Origin: Spirochaetaceae bacterium
GTDB lineage: Bacteria; Spirochaetota; Spirochaetia; Treponematales; Breznakiellaceae
Length of the DNA: 64,000 nt
Assembly: GCA_031278215.1 (NCBI GenBank)
Contig: JAITKV010000011.1
Location: forward strand, 58,063-122,062
Reading direction: 5' to 3'
The notes beneath the pieces are model-generated. The model had not been told where the DNA came from. It did not search any database and saw only the letters and a program-made list of their open reading frames with translations. Both the position numbers and the translations under genes were made by a program. The stretch's first letter is position 1, and every line of letters starts with the position of its first letter. Below, piece by piece: positions 6,772 through 14,400 of this stretch.

Positions 6772-7848
6772 CTAAAGGCCGAACAGTTCCCGCACCGCGC
6801 TGGAAAAAGCTTCCGGCGGGGGGGCCCGGAAAAACAGGCCCTGCGCCGGGGGATCCCCGGGCGCCCCCGGTATTTCCAGTTCCGCGGCATGAAGAAAAAA
6901 TCCCCCCGGCCCCCGGCGGCCGGGGAAGGGGCCCCCGCCGTATTTACGGTCCCCGGCAAGGGGGTGTCCGTGATGCGCCGCCTGGGCGCGGATCTGGTGG
7001 GTCCGGCCTGTGTCGATCCCGATCTCCGCCAGGGTGTAGAACGCGCCGTCCTTGGCGGCCCTGGCTATGGGAGAAACCCTGGTCCGGGCCCGCCGGCCCC
7101 TGTCCGGTCCCGGGGGCCGTTTTCCCGGGGGGCCGGCAACGCGGGTTTTTTGTTCCCCCCCGGCGCGGTACAACTCTTCTTCCCATACCGCGGCTTTTGT
7201 AAGGCTTCCTTCCAGGATCCCCAGGTACCGCTTGCGGATCTTTCCTTCCCGCAGGAGGGCGCTAAAATACCGGGCCCCGGCCAGGGTGGTGGAAAACACA
7301 ACAATTCCGCTGGTGGGTTTATCCAGCCGGTGAAGGGGGCCGGGCGTAAAAGAAAGGGACGGCGGAAGCCGCCCCGCCAGGTACCGCCGTACCCCTTGTT
7401 CCAGGGTGTCCTCCCCTCCGGGCGCGGGACCCCGCGGGCCTCCGCCGTGGACCGCCAGGCCGGGGGCCTTGTTGACGACCAGAAGCCCCGCGCCTTCCCA
7501 GAGTATGTCCGGAAGGTCCCGGCCCGCCGACCACGGCGCCGCCGGCCGCGGCGCCGCCGGCCACGGCGCCGCCGGCCACGGCGCCGCCGGGTCCCGGGTT
7601 CCGGGGTTTTCCCCCGGTCCGGGAATGAAGGGGGAAGGCCGGGGCCTTCCGGCCCCCGCGGATTCCGGTACGGTGATCCGGGCCCCCGCGGGGATCCGGT
7701 CCCTTCCCCGGCCGGGGCGGCCGTCTACGAGCACCAGCCCCCGGCGTAACAGCCTGTGGAGGGCGGAAAGGGGCATGGACGGAAGGGCTTTGCGGAGGAT
7801 CCGGTCAAGGCGGCGGCCGTCGTCGTCTTCCCGGGCGCGGAGGGTCAT
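6772..7848 (-). CDS. RNA pseudouridine synthase, RluA family, with repeat-expanded linker
   Basis: A 358-residue enzyme that isomerises uridine in rRNA or tRNA. It has an N-terminal S4 RNA-binding domain (RLDRILRKALPSMPLSALHRLLRRGLVLVDG, residues 13-45). The catalytic domain begins near 115 with ILWEGAGLLVVNKAPGLAVH and contains the catalytic motif HRLDKPTSGIVVF, then IDTGRTHQIRAQAAHHGHPLAGDRKYG. S4 plus RluA architecture matches RluC/RluD-type enzymes. Between the two domains sits an Ala/Pro/Trp-rich insert (PAAPW units) encoded by four copies of a 15-bp repeat; a linker of this kind is not conserved in the family. Target uridine unknown. Confidence 0.9.
   Translation of the reverse strand: MTLRAREDDDGRRLDRILRKALPSMPLSALHRLLRRGLVLVDGRPGRGRDRIPAGARITVPESAGAGRPRPSPFIPGPGENPGTRDPAAPWPAAPWPAAPRPAAPWSAGRDLPDILWEGAGLLVVNKAPGLAVHGGGPRGPAPGGEDTLEQGVRRYLAGRLPPSLSFTPGPLHRLDKPTSGIVVFSTTLAGARYFSALLREGKIRKRYLGILEGSLTKAAVWEEELYRAGGEQKTRVAGPPGKRPPGPDRGRRARTRVSPIARAAKDGAFYTLAEIGIDTGRTHQIRAQAAHHGHPLAGDRKYGGGPFPGRRGPGGFFLHAAELEIPGAPGDPPAQGLFFRAPPPEAFSSAVRELFGL
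7531..7590. repeat. Four 15-bp tandem repeats inside the pseudouridine synthase gene
   Basis: Units are CCACGGCGCCGCCGG, CCGCGGCGCCGCCGG and two further copies of the first. The array is in frame and encodes PAAPW repeats in the interdomain linker. The same core appears in the padR gene at 24391-24435 but is read there in another frame. Confidence 0.9.
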
Positions 7849-7905: not shown

Positions 7906-8376
7906 TTGGCAGGGGAGGCGGTTACGCGTTTTTTTGAAAATCCTATTTTTTTACCCTCTATTTCAAGTTTACTGCTGGCCCAGCTTATTAAGACCATTAT
8001 TTACCTGCTGCGGACAAAACGGAAAAATTTTAAAGACACCCTGGAAACCCTTATCTGGCGTACCGGGGGAATGCCTTCAAGCCATTCCGCCCTGGTAAGC
8101 TCCATGGCCCTGTCGGTGGCCTTTTCCGAAGGGGTGGATACGGCCCTGTTCATAGTTACCCTTATGCTAACCTTTATCGTAATCCGTGATTCCCTGGGGG
8201 TCCGCCGTTCCGCGGGAAACCAGGCCCGGGTTCTTAACTGGCTGGGCCGGAATATTTCCGAGAAGCTTGCATTGGAGTACCGCCCCGTTAAAGAGGTGAA
8301 CGGTCATTCCCCCCTTGAAGTAGTGGTGGGGTCTTTGTTAGGGCTCTTTATTGCCGCGGCCTTCCATTTTCTGTAG
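7906..8376 (+). CDS. Divergent PAP2-family membrane protein (DUF212)
   Basis: A 156-residue membrane protein of the DUF212/divergent PAP2 family. Seen features are several hydrophobic segments, the motif RTGGMPSSHSALVSSMALSVAF and a later VKEVNGHSPLEVVVGSLLG. The SSHSA and GHSPLEV motifs match the family signature and recall the PAP2 phosphatase SGSH/H motifs, but the canonical phosphatase motifs are incomplete, so phosphatase activity is uncertain. The frame starts with TTG at 7906 behind GTGGAGGG; no ATG or GTG is well placed. The gene is divergent from the pseudouridine synthase gene and upstream of the rnf-like cluster. Confidence 0.82.
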   Translation: MAGEAVTRFFENPIFLPSISSLLLAQLIKTIIYLLRTKRKNFKDTLETLIWRTGGMPSSHSALVSSMALSVAFSEGVDTALFIVTLMLTFIVIRDSLGVRRSAGNQARVLNWLGRNISEKLALEYRPVKEVNGHSPLEVVVGSLLGLFIAAAFHFL

Positions 8377-8485: not shown

Positions 8486-9790
8486 ATGAGGGTGCATTCA
8501 TTTTCCCGGGGGGGCATTCACTTTGCCGATTCGACGGTTCCTCCCCGGGATTCCAGTATTACCGCTTTCCTTCCCGGCCTTTCGGTGATTCCCCTGGTCC
8601 AGCATACCGGAAGCAAGGCTAATCCCGTCGTTTCGGTGGGAAGCCGGGTCAGCGAAGGCATGCTTATTGGCCGGGGCCAGGGCTTGGGGTCCGCCAATAT
8701 CCATGCCACCGTGCCGGGCCGGGTGGTTAGGACCGTTTCCTGGAAGATGGCCGAAGGAATTACCAACGACGCGCTGGTTATAAAACTGGAAGGCAGTTTT
8801 GAAAAACTGGGACGCCGGGAAGAGATCTTTCCCTGGCAAGGGCTGCCGGCCTTTGAACTACAGCGGATCATTGCCGAATACGGCATTGTAGAAATGGAGG
8901 GCTCCGGCCGGCCGGTGTCGGATATGTTGTACGCCCTCCGGTCTTCCCGAACCCCGGTAACGCTGGTGGTCCGCTGCGTTTTTGACGATCCCTGGCTGGC
9001 CGCGGATTATGTGCTGCTTCGGGAACGGCTGGAAGCGGTGGCCGAAGGAAGCCGCATCGCCGCCCGGGCCGGCCGGATGGACCGTATTGTGCTGGTTTTT
9101 TCCCGGGACGAAAAAGATCTGGGGCGCCTGCTTATGGACGCCATGACCAAGGCGGAACTTCCCGTTTCCCTGGCCCTGGTGGGGGCCCGGTATCCCCAGC
9201 GGAACCGCCGGGAACTGGAATTGGTGCTGGAACGTTTTGCCCAGGAAGAGGGGATAGAGCTGGGAACGATTCTGGCCTTGGGTCCCGCCACCCTGGCGGC
9301 GATCCACGATGCGGTAAAGCTAAAAAAAACCATCCTGGACCGGTATGTGGCGGTGGGGGGATCGGCCATTAAAAAACCCCAGGTGATGAAGGTGCGGATA
9401 GGCACCAGAATCGGGGAGATCTTTGCCGAATGCGGCGGCTTTATTGACACGCCCCGCCGCATAGGTTCCGGCTCCCCCCTGCTGGGCCGTACGGTGGTGG
9501 ATCTGGACGAACCGGTGATTAAAACCAGTTTTGCTATTTTTGCAATCCTTCCCGGACAAATAGGCGGTTCTGTCCGGAGTAAGTGTATCGGCTGCGGAGA
9601 ATGCCGGATCGTATGCCCCCTGGGGCTGGACCCGGAGGCGCTCTACAAGTACATGAACGGATCGGACCACCGGGATGTACATTTTGGCCGGGCCGCGGAA
9701 TGTCACGGCTGCGGCTGCTGTGAAGCGGTCTGTCCGTCCCGGCTGCCCCTTTCAACTACTATTATCCGGTCCGCATTAAAGGGTAATTAG
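8486..9790 (+). CDS. rnfC: RnfC-like electron transport subunit with divergent NADH/FMN region
   Basis: A 434-residue protein with the RnfC layout: N-terminal GGIHF domain and a biotinyl-lipoyl-like segment (VSEGMLIGRGQG...IHATVPGRVV), a central region, then two 4Fe-4S ferredoxin motifs near the C-terminus (CIGCGECRIVCP and CHGCGCCEAVCP). In classical RnfC the central domain has GxGGAxFPT for FMN/NADH and a GAECEPY motif. Here the equivalent stretches read YGIVEMEGSGRPVSDML and VVRCVFDDPWLAADY, so the NADH-binding signature is not recognisable. It is the first gene of five closely spaced or overlapping genes. The name is given by homology; function as an NADH or ferredoxin port is in doubt. 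Confidence 0.85.
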   Translation: MRVHSFSRGGIHFADSTVPPRDSSITAFLPGLSVIPLVQHTGSKANPVVSVGSRVSEGMLIGRGQGLGSANIHATVPGRVVRTVSWKMAEGITNDALVIKLEGSFEKLGRREEIFPWQGLPAFELQRIIAEYGIVEMEGSGRPVSDMLYALRSSRTPVTLVVRCVFDDPWLAADYVLLRERLEAVAEGSRIAARAGRMDRIVLVFSRDEKDLGRLLMDAMTKAELPVSLALVGARYPQRNRRELELVLERFAQEEGIELGTILALGPATLAAIHDAVKLKKTILDRYVAVGGSAIKKPQVMKVRIGTRIGEIFAECGGFIDTPRRIGSGSPLLGRTVVDLDEPVIKTSFAIFAILPGQIGGSVRSKCIGCGECRIVCPLGLDPEALYKYMNGSDHRDVHFGRAAECHGCGCCEAVCPSRLPLSTTIIRSALKGN

Positions 9791-9794
9791 GATT

Positions 9795-10850
9795 ATGGAT
9801 ATTTCTCTCTTGCAAAAACCCCAGGTAAACCTGGCCCGCTCTACCCGCGGACGGATGTGGCTTGTAAGCGTCTGTGCGTTCCTTGCCGTATTTCAATCTT
9901 CCCTGGGCGATAACTTTCACTCCCTCTTTGTAGCCCTGGCGGCGATGGCGGGGGCCATGGGCACGGAACTCCTTTTTAACATCAAGGCCCGGTACTACTC
10001 TATCACCGATGGCAGCGCCCTGGCTTCGGCCCTGGTTCTGGCGCTGCTGCTTCCCAACCGGCTTAATCCCCTCCTGGCGTTCCTGGGGGGCGTCTTTGCC
10101 ATGACGGTATTTAAGTACAGTTTTGGGGGCCTGGGTTCCAACTGGGTTAATCCCGCCGCGGGGGCCTGGCTTTTTATCCGGTCCGCGTGGCCCGGGGCCT
10201 TTACCCGCAGCATCCAACAGGGGCCCCTGGAACAGCTTGCCCTGTCCCTGGAAGCGGGGCTTCGGGACTCCCAGGGCCTGCCCATGGCCCTGCTCAAGAT
10301 TAACGGCTGGTTCAGTTCCTCCCTGGACAATATCCTAAGCGGGTTTTTTAACAATACCATCTTTGCCTTTACCGGAACCTCCCTTCCCCAGGGCTACCTG
10401 ACCCTCCTTTCCCCGCCGGGGCCGGGAATAATCGCCGACCGGGGATTGTTCTTTTTGCTGCTGGGGACGATCCTGATCGTCTCTTCCCAAAGTTTCCGGT
10501 TTTGGCTTCCCCTGGTTTTTGTGTTTGTTTTTTCAGGCCTAGTGCGAATTTTTGGGGCCCTGTCCTTTGGGGGGGGGCTGTGGGAAGGGGATGTGCTTTT
10601 TGCCCTTTTTTCCGGGGGCACAATGGCCGCGGCCTTTATTCTTATTACCGATCCCGCCACAGGGCCCAAATCCGCTCCGGGCTACGTGGTTCTTGTTTCG
10701 TTTATTGCGTTTTTTACGTTCCTGTTCCGCTACCCCGGCCGGGACCCCTACGGCGCGATCACCGCGGTCCTGGTGGGCAATGCCCTGACGCCCCTGATCC
10801 GCCGGATCGAGAATGTCCTCTATTATGAAAAACGAAGGGGGGGGCCATGA
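9795..10850 (+). CDS. rnfD: RnfD-like membrane subunit
   Basis: A 351-residue polytopic protein. Hydrophobic segments run across the whole length, beginning at about residue 20. Motifs typical of RnfD/NqrB are visible: LALLLPNRLNPLLAFLGGVFAM, FGGLGSNWVNPAAGAWLF and the late ITDPATGPKSAPG. The FMN-attachment region that reads SGAT in characterised RnfD proteins appears here as FTGTSLPQG, so covalent flavin binding is uncertain. The start is 5 bases after the rnfC stop with TTAGGATT upstream, and the stop overlaps rnfG by ATGA. In Rnf complexes this subunit forms part of the ion path and the flavin relay. Confidence 0.85.
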   Translation: MDISLLQKPQVNLARSTRGRMWLVSVCAFLAVFQSSLGDNFHSLFVALAAMAGAMGTELLFNIKARYYSITDGSALASALVLALLLPNRLNPLLAFLGGVFAMTVFKYSFGGLGSNWVNPAAGAWLFIRSAWPGAFTRSIQQGPLEQLALSLEAGLRDSQGLPMALLKINGWFSSSLDNILSGFFNNTIFAFTGTSLPQGYLTLLSPPGPGIIADRGLFFLLLGTILIVSSQSFRFWLPLVFVFVFSGLVRIFGALSFGGGLWEGDVLFALFSGGTMAAAFILITDPATGPKSAPGYVVLVSFIAFFTFLFRYPGRDPYGAITAVLVGNALTPLIRRIENVLYYEKRRGGP

Positions 10851-11287
10851 GCGGCAAAAACCCGCGGCGGGATTTGCTTGTAACCGCGGCTTGGATTGGG
10901 GGGGCGATCCTCGTGGGGGCTCTGGTCTGGGCCTTAACCCAGCCCCACCGGTCAAGGCTTTTAATCGAGGCGGTTAACAAGGTTCTGGCCCAGGACGGGG
11001 ACGGACGGCGGCTTGGGGCTCCGCTGGAACCGGGATCCCTCCTGGGTTTGGGCCGGTGGTTTTCGATGGAAGGGTCCGGCGACAGGGCCTTTGTATTCAC
11101 CGTTATAAGGGGAGGGGGCTTTGCGGCCTGCGTGGCCCTAACCGACAGTTCCGGCCGGGTTAGGCTTGTGGCGCCCCTAAGCCGCGGCGCCGCTCAGATT
11201 ATGGCGGAACTGCCCCCGCCCGTGTACCAGTTCTACGTAAACCGGATCGAAAGAGCCGCCGCCCTGGACTTTAGGAGGTTTAGATGA
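10847..11287 (+). CDS. rnfG: Short RnfG-like single-pass protein lacking the flavin motif
   Basis: A 146-residue protein assigned by position and topology: one N-terminal membrane segment (LLVTAAWIGGAILVGALVWAL) and a small exported domain. Standard RnfG is nearer 200 residues and carries SGATxT, whose threonine binds FMN covalently. I find no SGAT-like motif in this product, which ends after a short GGGFAACVALTDSSGRVRLVAP region resembling the start of an FMN-binding fold. Translation is coupled at both ends by 4-base overlaps with rnfD and rnfE. It may be a structural remnant or a different accessory subunit. The symbol is therefore tentative. Confidence 0.6.
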   Translation: MSGKNPRRDLLVTAAWIGGAILVGALVWALTQPHRSRLLIEAVNKVLAQDGDGRRLGAPLEPGSLLGLGRWFSMEGSGDRAFVFTVIRGGGFAACVALTDSSGRVRLVAPLSRGAAQIMAELPPPVYQFYVNRIERAAALDFRRFR

Positions 11288-11889
11288 ATTCGCAGGCCCA
11301 GTCCCACCTGTTTTGGGGGATCAATTCTCCCCTGACCACCCTTACCGGATCGGGGCTCTTGATAATTGCTTCCGGGCGCATTTCATTTGCCCTGGTCTGC
11401 GGCATGGCCCTGATATGGGTGTATGTTTTTTCCCTATGCGCCGCCAAACTGGGAAAATTACCCCCGCCGGGAAGGGCGCCGGCGCTGCTCTTTCTTTCCG
11501 CCCTGGGGGCGTGCATTTTTTTTGTGGTCCTGTGGATCCTTAATCCCATTCTGGCCCTGGAAAGCAGCTTCTTTATCTTTCTTAGTCCCGTGGTTTTTAC
11601 CGCCTCCCGGCTTTGTGAACGGGTATGGGACTTCGATATGGCGGAGGGCCTGTCCCAGGCGGTAACGGAGGCGCTGATCCTGGGGATATTGATCCTGGGG
11701 CTGTCCTTGATTCGGGAACCCCTGGGCTTTGGGTCCGTTTCCGTTCCCGGTTTGGACAGCATCAGGTTTATACAGGAAGAACCCCTTAGGATACTTCAGG
11801 CTTCATCCGGGGCCCTGATTATCCTGGGATACGGCATCGCCGTTTACCGGTACTTTAGAAACCGGTATACCAATTCGGAGGACGACTGA
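11284..11889 (+). CDS. rnfE: RnfE-like membrane subunit without the cluster cysteines
   Basis: A 201-residue polytopic protein. It aligns by eye with RsxE/RnfE: NSPLTTLTGSGLLIIAS corresponds to NSALVQLLGLCPLLAVT, and LGLSLIREPLG corresponds to GSLREIIG. The two cysteines that in characterised RnfE help to hold the intramembrane 2Fe-2S cluster (in LLGLCP and VTNCIV) are absent; the second site reads LSPVVFTAS. It overlaps rnfG by 4 bases and rnfA by 1 base. The fold is probably retained while the redox centre is lost. Confidence 0.8.
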   Translation: MNSQAQSHLFWGINSPLTTLTGSGLLIIASGRISFALVCGMALIWVYVFSLCAAKLGKLPPPGRAPALLFLSALGACIFFVVLWILNPILALESSFFIFLSPVVFTASRLCERVWDFDMAEGLSQAVTEALILGILILGLSLIREPLGFGSVSVPGLDSIRFIQEEPLRILQASSGALIILGYGIAVYRYFRNRYTNSEDD

Positions 11890-12479
11890 TGATCCTGGCG
11901 TTGTTCTTCTTCGCGGCCCTGTCCCTTAATTTACTTTTGAATTTCGGCCTGGGGGTCCGGGAATTGATTTCCCGGGAACGATCCCCCAAGGCGCACCTGT
12001 ACTATCCCTGGGTTATCCTTTTTCTGGCCACCGCGTTGATCTGGGTTGTGTTTGCCCGGATCCTCCGTCCGCTGGGGGATACTTTTAATTATCTGTTGAT
12101 GATTCCCCTGGCGCTGCTGGGCAGCCAGGAAATCGAAAAGCTCCTGTTTTATTTTTTTCCGGGACTGGGGGATTGTCCGGGGGTGTTTAAAATCGGCTCG
12201 GCCTATAACGACCTTTCCGCGGCCGCCCTTTTTTTTACCCTCCAGTTTGCCCTTACGGTTTGGGAGGCCCTGCTTTTTTCCTGTGCCTTTTCCGCCGGCG
12301 GGCTTTTGGCCTTCCTGGTGGTTAAGGAAATACAAAAAAGGTCCTTCCTCGAAGCTATCCCGTACGGCCTGCGGGGAACCCCCATACTGCTTATTTCTCT
12401 GGGGATCCTGTCCCTTATTTTTTCCGCGGGGGCGGTGCTGCTTTTAAAAATTCTGGGACCCGGCCTCGCCCGGCCTTGA
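11889..12479 (+). CDS. rnfA: RnfA-like membrane subunit without the cluster cysteines
   Basis: A 196-residue polytopic protein and the last gene of the cluster. The C-terminal IPYGLRGTPILLISLGILSLIF matches [22 protein letters not shown] of RsxA. The N-terminal site FLGLCPF is replaced by FGLGVRE, and the TTNCAVLG site by TLQFALTV, so both expected cluster cysteines are missing. The only cysteines left are in GLGDCPG and LLFSCAF, elsewhere in the chain. No rnfB follows: the next gene is a GH57-like protein. The TGA stop lies inside an 18-bp direct repeat. Confidence 0.8.
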   Translation: MILALFFFAALSLNLLLNFGLGVRELISRERSPKAHLYYPWVILFLATALIWVVFARILRPLGDTFNYLLMIPLALLGSQEIEKLLFYFFPGLGDCPGVFKIGSAYNDLSAAALFFTLQFALTVWEALLFSCAFSAGGLLAFLVVKEIQKRSFLEAIPYGLRGTPILLISLGILSLIFSAGAVLLLKILGPGLARP

Positions 12480-12591: not shown

Positions 12592-14400
12592 ATGGCCGGC
12601 AAGATTAGCCTTATCCTTGGCTCCCATGCCCATTTTTCTCCTTCCATGGGGGAGGAAGATTTTGAGGATCTGTACAGGACTAAACTTAAACCCTTTATTA
12701 CCGCGTTAAATCAACATACCAAGATCCAGGCGGTGCTCCGCTATTCCGGCCCCCTGCTATGCAAGCTGGAACAGAAAAAACCGGAATTCTTTTTGCTTAT
12801 CAAGGAACTGGCGGCCCGAAAACGGCTTGAAATATTGGGGGGAGGATTTTACGAGCCCCTGCTGCCCTTTTTACCCCCCGCGGACAAAATAGGACAGATC
12901 GAGATGTTTACCACCTACATCCGGAAAAATTTCGGCAGAAAACCCCAGGGCTGCTGGCTTGCCCGGAATGGCTGGGATCAGTCCCTGGTGGGGGTGCTTA
13001 ATACCTGCGGCATGGCCTATACTTTTTTAAGCGAAGAACAGTTCTTTGCCGCCGGATGCACCGGCGAGGCCCTCTTTCATCCTGTTTTTACCGAAGATCA
13101 AGGAAAACTGTTGGCGGTTTTTCCGGTATTTAGCTCCCTGGCGGACATGGGAACCAGGGGGGCCCCCGAGGTTTTGCAGGGCATTTCGGAACCCGCCTTT
13201 GTAACGGTATTTCCCGAATTTCCCTCGAACCAGGGGGAAGAGGCGGTGGAAAAGTTTTTCGCGGAGCTTTCCGAATTCTTGGCGGAAAAAGGCGGAATTG
13301 AACTTACCACCCCCGGCAAGGTATACAGAAGCTGCGGCTCCCTGCCCCGGGTGTATTTTCCCTCCTCCGGAGACCGGTACCGGGGCTGCCTTATCAAGTT
13401 CGAAGAAGCCAACGACCTTTATTCCAAGATATTTTTTATCCATAACCAGATAAACCAGCTTAGGGGCGACAAGTCCCGCAAACGTTCCGCCCGGGAAGAA
13501 CTGTGGAAGGCCCAGTGCATGGAAGCCCTAAGCTGCAGCTGCCGGGGGGACATCAGCGCCCCGGCGGTCCGTAAACATTCCTACAAGGCTATCCTCGCGT
13601 CGGAGCGGATTACCAGGGAAAAAGAATTTAAGCCTTCCCTGCTTGCCTTTGACTTTAACCTAAACAGCACCCTGGAATACCTTTTCCAGGATAAAAACAT
13701 CAACTGCTATGTACGAACCCGGGGGGCCGCGGTCTTTGAACTTGATCACCTTCCCCGGGGCTGGAATTACCTGGACACCTTTTCCGGCGGGGCCCGCCGC
13801 CGCTGCGCCTTCATGGACCGGATCCTCCCCGGCGATTTTATTCCCTCGGGGCCAAACTCCTTTCCCCCCGGGAGCTGTTTCTACGGGGAAGAAAACTACC
13901 ATGTGGAATCCATGGACCGGCAGAAGCTTAAGATTTCTTTTATCCTTCCCCCCCAGGGGGATCTTCCCTTTGGCTCAATCGAGATTCAAAAAACCTACCG
14001 GCTGGAAAAAAACATCCTGCACCTTTCGTATACCCTCTGTAACCGGGGAGAGGAAAAAACGGTGTTTTGTTTTATTCCCCAGTTTGATCTATCCCTGGCC
14101 GTGGAAGGACGGCGGCTTTTGTTTAAGCAAAGCCAGGGGGAAGAAGAACTGTCCGAAGAGGGGGGCGGAGTAAAAAAGCGGGTTCTGGCCCTGGAGGAAC
14201 AAAATGACCGGTCCGGCGCGGCCCTTTCCCTGGACTTTCAAAGCCCCTGCGACCTGTACTATTATCCGGTGATGGTAGACGGGTACTACCAGTCCACCTG
14301 CTTTTTTCCGGTGTTCCAGCTTTTTTTGAACCCCGCCGGCGAATGGCAAAACCAGATAGCCCTTACCGTCTCCACCAGGACCCGGCTGTCAAAGAGTTAA
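12592..14400 (+). CDS. GH57-like glycoside hydrolase family protein, probably catalytically altered
   Basis: A 602-residue protein resembling the GH57 alpha-amylase/4-alpha-glucanotransferase group, including the later domains seen in those enzymes. Visible family blocks are LGSHAHFSP near the start, EILGGGFYEPLLPFLPPADKIGQI and WLARNGWDQSLVGVL. In active GH57 enzymes the last block reads WLxERVWxP and its Glu is the nucleophile. Here the position is Arg125. The acid/base region is also unlike HxGDDGE. C-terminal beta-rich parts (about 370-600) resemble DUF1925/DUF1926. No signal peptide, so cytoplasmic. It may bind or reshape glucans without hydrolysis. The ATG at 12592 is the only good start; the gene is probably transcribed apart from rnf. 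Confidence 0.75.
   Translation: MAGKISLILGSHAHFSPSMGEEDFEDLYRTKLKPFITALNQHTKIQAVLRYSGPLLCKLEQKKPEFFLLIKELAARKRLEILGGGFYEPLLPFLPPADKIGQIEMFTTYIRKNFGRKPQGCWLARNGWDQSLVGVLNTCGMAYTFLSEEQFFAAGCTGEALFHPVFTEDQGKLLAVFPVFSSLADMGTRGAPEVLQGISEPAFVTVFPEFPSNQGEEAVEKFFAELSEFLAEKGGIELTTPGKVYRSCGSLPRVYFPSSGDRYRGCLIKFEEANDLYSKIFFIHNQINQLRGDKSRKRSAREELWKAQCMEALSCSCRGDISAPAVRKHSYKAILASERITREKEFKPSLLAFDFNLNSTLEYLFQDKNINCYVRTRGAAVFELDHLPRGWNYLDTFSGGARRRCAFMDRILPGDFIPSGPNSFPPGSCFYGEENYHVESMDRQKLKISFILPPQGDLPFGSIEIQKTYRLEKNILHLSYTLCNRGEEKTVFCFIPQFDLSLAVEGRRLLFKQSQGEEELSEEGGGVKKRVLALEEQNDRSGAALSLDFQSPCDLYYYPVMVDGYYQSTCFFPVFQLFLNPAGEWQNQIALTVSTRTRLSKS

Follow-up and report, generated by a model that had tools for sequence, protein, structure and literature searches.

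Does a set of rnf genes from which the cofactor-binding residues have disappeared still encode an electron-driven ion pump, and if not, what could it do? The question is raised by a 64,000-nucleotide stretch of DNA, called here the window (Spirochaetaceae bacterium assembly GCA_031278215.1, contig JAITKV010000011.1, positions 58,063 to 122,062 of the forward strand). Its positions 8486-12479 hold five intact open reading frames (ORFs) on the plus strand that lie end to end and encode homologues of RnfC, RnfD, RnfG, RnfE and RnfA; neighbouring ORFs overlap by 1-4 bases, except for C and D, which are separated by 4 bases. A preliminary description, made from the letters and the ORF translations, had claimed that RnfA and RnfE lack the intramembrane iron-sulfur cysteines and that the standard electron path is therefore closed. 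The results presented here make it very probable, as judged from the encoded residues, that the cluster is not an Rnf-type redox pump.

The homology of the two membrane subunits was assessed with profile searches and AlphaFold models, both built from alignments of 36 relatives in the family of the window. This family (f1) includes termite-gut treponemes and Breznakiella homolactica and is probably Breznakiellaceae; the family names of the relatives were inferred from loci found by name, f3 being Treponemataceae. Family models scarcely detected RnfE (Pfam Rnf-Nqr E = 0.09), and the matches of RnfA to such models were limited to NCBIfam rnfA/nqrE-type models (best, 2.7e-7). When compared with solved chains, the RnfA profile matched NqrE (3e-11) and RnfA from Acetobacterium woodii (2e-9). 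The AlphaFold monomers of the RnfA-like and RnfE-like proteins, with predicted local distance difference test (pLDDT) values of 88.5 and 75.7, found their best PDB matches in RnfA/NqrE and NqrD/RnfE, respectively, with TM-scores of about 0.6-0.7. That the RnfA-like protein is a true RnfA homologue by fold and descent is not in doubt, and the corresponding assignment of the RnfE-like protein is reasonably secure.

The cysteine columns were set by alignment to the standard Rnf of the same genome, and none of the four [2Fe-2S] cysteines is kept in RnfA and RnfE of the window, as had been claimed. Three of the four replacements read earlier by eye agree with this alignment: in RnfE, TLTGSG stands for LLGLCP (first cysteine to Gly24) and SPVVFTA for VTNC (second cysteine to Phe105), and in RnfA, FGLGVRE stands for FLGLCPF (first cysteine to Arg24). 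The fourth, in which TLQFALT of RnfA was paired with TTNCAVL, was misplaced, the true counterpart being AYND about 10 residues earlier; the loss of the cysteine itself holds. Among 75 family loci with both genes, no cysteine is found in 36, one in 37, two in 2 and more than two in none. The lone cysteine kept by about half of the relatives lies mostly in the second RnfE column, and one retained RnfE cysteine is unable to hold a cluster alone. Cysteines that are shifted but present, an objection already foreseen in the preliminary description, were rejected on these counts and on the columns of the 36 family members, among which no conserved cysteine column was found in A or E (maximum, 16/36 in E and 9/36 in A). 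A search of the family alignment columns for the replacement metal ligands that had been suggested as something to look for also found none conserved in either protein; the charged columns (E83, E126, R151 and E155 of RnfA; R32, E93, R144 and E145 of RnfE) were considered and rejected as a ligand set.

The A/E cysteines, RnfB, the flavin mononucleotide (FMN) motifs of D and G and the FMN/NADH site of RnfC are all absent together, which supports the claim of a closed standard electron path more strongly than had been realized; the preliminary description had been silent on RnfB and on the FMN-site losses in C, D and G. There is no RnfB within the operon, the strong RnfB match of the window genome being located in a standard operon on contig C20, and the sole RnfB-like ORF by the operon among family relatives is a truncated one beside A (L060). 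Between the PAP2 and GH57 genes that flank the operon there is no NqrF ORF either; the NqrF of this genome is on contig C10. The covalent-FMN motif of RnfD, S(T)GA(S/T), was found in none of 18 f1 copies and none of 18 f3 copies, and the RnfG-like protein produced no Pfam FMN_bind or NCBIfam match. The RnfC motif GxGGAGFP is missing from all syntenic RnfC copies except that of locus L235, which has GGATFP, and was therefore lost early. The replacement RCVFDDPW in RnfC varies hardly at all within the family, and residues F166, D167, D168 and W170 of the window RnfC are invariant in the 36 family members. The coordinates of all these features are collected in Table 1.

Table 1. Features of the rnf cluster and its flanking genes, in window coordinates.
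Feature	Position	Strand	Evidence
DUF212/divergent PAP2 family gene, upstream	7906..8376	+	Pfam 1.1e-39; adjoins the operon in nearly all relatives
RnfC-like, 434 aa; barrel-sandwich, SLBB and two [4Fe-4S] motifs present, FMN/NADH site lost	8486..9790	+	NCBIfam rnfC 1.3e-67, under curated cut-off; PDB RnfC 7zc6_C 2e-50
GIVEMEGSGRP where the RnfC flavin/nucleotide motif GxGGAGFP is expected	8882..8914	+	alignments
RCVFDDPW in place of N(G)AECEPY of RnfC	8972..8995	+	alignments
RnfC [4Fe-4S] motif 1, C367 C370 C373 C377	9584..9616	+	invariant in each copy examined
RnfC [4Fe-4S] motif 2, C406 C409 C412 C416, plus extra invariant C411	9701..9733	+	alignments
RnfD-like, 351 aa; SGAT FMN-attachment loop deleted	9795..10850	+	Pfam NQR2_RnfD_RnfE 1.8e-49; motif table
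RnfD NWVNP; N119 aligns with riboflavin-binding N123 of A. woodii	10140..10154	+	N in 36/36 relatives, 78/78 further loci
RnfD D286; aligns with riboflavin-binding D249 of A. woodii	10650..10652	+	D or E in 36/36
RnfG-like, 146 aa; one transmembrane helix, shrunken periplasmic domain, no SGAT flavinylation motif	10847..11287	+	placed between D and E; family alignment
RnfE-like, 201 aa	11284..11889	+	profile match to PDB NqrD 2.3e-5; AlphaFold 2 model matches NqrD/RnfE
RnfE first [2Fe-2S] Cys position, Gly24 (LTGSGLL)	11353..11355	+	alignments
RnfE second [2Fe-2S] Cys position, Phe105 (LSPVVFT)	11596..11598	+	alignments
RnfA-like, 196 aa	11889..12479	+	NCBIfam rnfA 2.7e-7; profile match to PDB NqrE 3.3e-11; AlphaFold 2 pLDDT 88.5, matches RnfA/NqrE
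RnfA first [2Fe-2S] Cys position, Arg24 (GLGVREL); R/K in 22/36 relatives	11958..11960	+	alignments
RnfA second [2Fe-2S] Cys position, Asp108 (SAYNDLS); Gly in 32/36 relatives	12210..12212	+	alignments
GH57 glucanotransferase-like gene, downstream; nucleophile Glu replaced (WLARNGW)	12592..14400	+	Pfam 2.6e-27; aligned to Thermococcus litoralis 1k1w

When compared with standard Rnf (A. woodii 9eri, Clostridium tetanomorphum 7zc6 and Azotobacter vinelandii 8ahx), the window cluster shares the C, D, G, E, A order and folds, the two [4Fe-4S] motifs of RnfC, and the NP motif and Asp by which A. woodii RnfD binds riboflavin, and differs by the absence of RnfB, the A/E [2Fe-2S] cysteines, the SGAT motif of D and G, and GGAGFP and AECEPY of RnfC. 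By fold and ancestry, with C, D, E and A homologues in operon order, it is Rnf; it is a member of the Rnf/Nqr superfamily that lacks four of the residue and subunit features by which a functional Rnf is defined. At the sequence level, every carrier from the cytoplasmic ferredoxin side to the periplasmic flavins has been lost, as well as the NAD site. In A. woodii, both the ferredoxin:NAD+ activity of Rnf and autotrophic growth are abolished when any one of four groups of residues is removed: the [2Fe-2S] cysteines of A/E, the B8 cysteines, the FMN residues of RnfG or the riboflavin residues of RnfD (PMC11889175). Therefore, the window cluster, which belongs to an orthologous set called here Rnf2, is predicted to be neither a ferredoxin:NAD+ oxidoreductase nor a pump powered by transmembrane electron flow. 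No account of such a stripped Rnf was found in the literature searched, in which subscription journals are poorly represented.

The genome of the window is a 2.1-Mb metagenome-assembled genome, 80% complete. Contig C20 (L036) includes a complete standard Rnf in which RnfB, SGAT, GGAGFP and every cysteine are present, and contig C10 (L035) of the same genome includes a complete Na+-translocating NADH:quinone oxidoreductase (Na+-NQR). The idea that the window cluster is part of the only Rnf of the genome was rejected, since a full Rnf and a full Nqr are located elsewhere in it; the cluster is a third, paralogous Rnf-type set. A second, complete Rnf operon had been named in the preliminary description as a possible objection; it exists and leaves the reading unrefuted, and the presence of a complete standard Rnf and Nqr in the genome explains how the third set might have been released from the task of pumping.

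In each of the four Treponematales families examined (f1, f3, f4 and f5), orthologous operons are found at one chromosomal site, with the organization PAP2-X-rnfCDGEA(B)-GH57, and the site is present also in several further families of the class. Most f1 genomes carry the operon between the DUF212/PAP2 and GH57 genes. The site is occupied by a range of states. The PAP2-X site of L235 (f10; L235:8538-14707) holds a standard Rnf that is complete, includes RnfB and is the only Rnf of a 1.5-Mb genome, and this is the apparent ancestral state of the locus. All four A/E cysteines are kept in 4/10 f4 and 2/10 f5 copies, five of these six four-cysteine copies having RnfB beside them; the f3 copies have a truncated RnfB or none, and the membrane centres have disappeared from both f1 and f3. 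In L230 the flanking genes and X are present and the rnf genes are absent. Some f4 and f5 loci, including L170 and L171, have lost the A/E cysteines and the RnfG FMN motif and have kept RnfB (with at least 20 cysteines) and the RnfD SGAT; copies of this type may be working intermediates in which electrons take a different route. In a tree of RnfC the standard copies fall in a single clade (100/100), separate from the Rnf2 copies, f1, f3 and f4 each form one clade, and in a quick tree the L235 RnfC branches as the sister of the eroded copies as a whole. At least five losses of the four-cysteine set are needed on the RnfC tree, in a count that allowed losses only. Rnf2 can thus be considered a third, ancient Rnf-type complex, orthologous across treponemes and derived from standard Rnf at the same chromosomal site.

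Could the operon be simply a decaying duplicate with no present function? The RnfC branches are long in comparison with those of the standard copies, RnfG is short and the fastest evolving of the subunits, and the rnf genes are missing from the site in L230, all of which would fit decay. Against this, the ORFs are intact in dozens of species, RnfC being 77-96% identical in the closest relatives, and the operon is kept even in a reduced genome of 1.14 Mb. Ratios of nonsynonymous to synonymous substitution rates (dN/dS) versus close relatives are 0.07-0.12 for C, 0.17 for D, 0.20 for E, 0.21-0.36 for A and 0.36 for G, similar to the 0.12-0.30 of the flanking PAP2 and GH57 genes. The operon is under purifying selection and is not decaying. 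Its dN/dS values and breadth of occurrence led us to reject a pseudogene reading, and its presence in two genomes of the same genus and in most genomes of the family led us to reject an oddity of a single metagenome-assembled genome or an assembly error; present decay without function is highly improbable.

One of the orthologous operons, L190 (G013:C1:168000-182000), is in a genome that consists of a single contig of 1,139,633 bases. Its gene order of pseudouridine synthase, PAP2, RnfC and RnfD matches that of TPASS_0154, 0153 and 0151 in PMC4403809, and the genome appears to be that of Treponema pallidum, the syphilis bacterium. The operon has the order PAP2-C-D-G-E-A-GH57 and includes the only rnf genes of the genome, in which no Rnf-Nqr A/E match and no RnfB were found; there are two FMN_bind matches, both away from the operon. 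RnfE and RnfA have none of the four cysteines, RnfD has no SGAT loop and RnfC has all eight cysteines. The T. pallidum copy thus shares with the window cluster its site, the orthologous operon, the class of losses and the retention of the RnfC Fe-S cysteines, and differs from it in being more diverged (A is about 25% identical to the window copy), in having Glu for the RnfD riboflavin Asp, and in the absence of a standard Rnf or Nqr elsewhere in the genome. In the passages of the literature that deal with its role, the T. pallidum complex is described as a noncanonical, flavin-based Rnf pump by which flavodoxin is oxidised and a chemiosmotic gradient is built (PMC7512555, PMC11717252, PMC11371664), and the complex of RnfD (TP0151) is proposed as a flavodoxin:NAD+ redox pump (PMC7512555, PMC11717252); the cofactor residues are not examined in those passages. 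As far as the encoded residues indicate, our results contradict the published redox-pump role of the T. pallidum complex.

The same genome bears on the possibility that Rnf2 remains an electron-driven pump by means of borrowed parts, such as RnfB of a standard Rnf or another ferredoxin-like protein, together with non-covalently bound flavins. The window genome does encode a standard RnfB, and the fact that some f4 and f5 copies retain RnfB and the RnfD FMN motif after loss of the A/E cysteines suggests that some electron flow may outlast the [2Fe-2S] cluster. The T. pallidum-like genome, however, has no such lender, being without RnfB, standard Rnf or Nqr anywhere; there would be no membrane-crossing route without the A/E cluster and the FMNs; and the RnfC FMN and NAD motifs are gone too. 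We regard a pump of this kind as improbable.

The neighbours of the operon include two that are common to most loci. The GH57 protein of the window has WLARNGW where T. litoralis 1k1w has WLTERVW. The nucleophile Glu is missing in the listed f1 motifs and most f3 motifs, whereas most of the f5 motifs retain it, as do about half of those of f4; the GH57 neighbour is probably, to go by this motif, a pseudoenzyme that evolved alongside the eroded Rnf. In 63 of the scanned loci (for example L191:6034-7491, L067:10718-12253 and L044:782-2224) the gene between PAP2 and rnfC encodes a membrane protein, X, of about 480-530 amino acids and without a Pfam family. X is missing at the window locus and at L190 and was therefore rejected as an obligatory missing partner; a search of the window genome, which had no positive control, gave no match to X. 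On the minus strand, an RluD-like pseudouridine synthase gene (6772-7848) includes a repeated PAAPWPAAP-type run at window positions 7500-7600. A promoter and terminator scan gave matches at chance level.

If Rnf2 does not pump, the parts that have been retained may indicate what it does. All syntenic copies examined have the full set of eight RnfC [4Fe-4S] cysteines. Of 80 further loci, 78 have it as well, and in one of the remaining two the C-terminal part is missing. The RnfC clusters appear to be selected for because these cysteines were kept while the other centres were eroded repeatedly. N123 and D249 of A. woodii RnfD bind riboflavin (PMC11889175), and the equivalents of both are present in the window RnfD. 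RnfA Glu88 and RnfE Arg67 are part of the ion-pair network for Na+ entry in A. woodii; in the family of the window the equivalent of E88 is kept in 30/36 and that of R67, as R or K, in 26/36. The remnant would then be the cytoplasmic end of the chain, with the two Fe-S clusters of RnfC beside a probable RnfD riboflavin, and with RnfA, RnfE and RnfD as a membrane scaffold that in f1 keeps the charged pair for Na+ entry. A soluble one-electron carrier could reduce RnfC at the remodelled EMEGSGRP/FDDPW surface, and the redox state of the Fe-S clusters and riboflavin could set the conformation of the membrane part, which would act in redox sensing or as a redox-gated ion path; alternatively, the electrons might end at a membrane-facing acceptor, none of them crossing the membrane. 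This specific mechanism, in which RnfC is reduced by a soluble carrier and sets the state of the membrane part, is put forward tentatively and may well be wrong; taken jointly with the loss of the pump role, it is the explanation that we prefer, with belief and doubt about evenly balanced.

Its main rival is a fully non-redox structural or transport assembly on the Rnf fold, in which the RnfC Fe-S clusters would be staples and the GH57 protein a partner pseudoenzyme. The loss of all membrane and periplasmic centres together with the conservation of the A and E folds fits such an assembly, for which there is a precedent in NqrA, an RnfC homologue that has lost the NAD, FMN and Fe-S sites and kept a structural role (PMC4014512). 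NqrA, however, shed all eight cysteines, which here are invariant amid erosion, something unusual for a mere staple, and the riboflavin Asn is invariant in f1, f4 and f5. We consider a fully non-redox assembly unlikely, if a good deal less so than borrowed parts.

Several observations weigh against redox gating as proposed above or in favour of its rival. The GH57 nucleophile Glu was lost in parallel with the Rnf active sites in f1 and most of f3, as the non-redox assembly would have it. The N123 and D249 equivalents could be kept for folding and not for flavin binding, and the RnfC clusters could be purely structural. In Treponemataceae, Glu, Trp or Phe often stands in the place of the riboflavin Asp, and the R67/E88 pair has not been retained there, nor is it consistent across other families; a role in riboflavin binding or ion gating is therefore not uniform. 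Identity in the RnfE and RnfG alignments is about 20-25%, and these alignments are less secure than the ones for RnfC and RnfD; the RnfE model is of moderate quality, and the models are monomers. The absence of conserved cysteines, as read from the alignment columns, is independent of the exact register of the RnfE and RnfG alignments.

The comparison with Na+-NQR (Vibrio cholerae 7xk3 and 8a1v) places Rnf2 among the known derivatives of Rnf. Subunits B, C, D and E of Nqr are homologous to D, G, E and A of Rnf, and Na+-NQR likewise descends from a duplicated rnf operon minus rnfB (PMC4014512). In Na+-NQR the D/E cluster and the flavins were kept, NqrF was gained and NqrA was emptied of Fe-S centres; the window cluster shows the reverse, with the RnfC Fe-S centres kept, the membrane centres gone and no NqrF. 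Rnf2 is nearly a mirror image of Nqr.

Rnf is usually treated as a single machine with a single job, and the intact, Rnf-derived operon without redox-pump centres that is kept by nearly all treponemes examined departs from that. The series of states at one site, which runs from a complete Rnf to one that is wholly emptied, is useful for finding which parts can work without electrons. Metabolic models of termite-gut and host-associated treponemes are misled when such operons are automatically annotated as Rnf. The finding also bears on the energy supply of T. pallidum, which the literature, in the passages concerned with it, explains by a flavin-based Rnf pump (PMC7512555, PMC11717252); variation in TP0151 is interpreted in light of this role in the relevant part of PMC11371664. 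It is somewhat probable that a treponeme-wide complex of Rnf subunits was converted by repeated losses at one site to another device, a redox-gated channel, sensor or scaffold, and that the syphilis spirochete is without any Rnf pump. If this is true, flavin-driven chemiosmotic energy conservation via Rnf does not exist in the syphilis spirochete.

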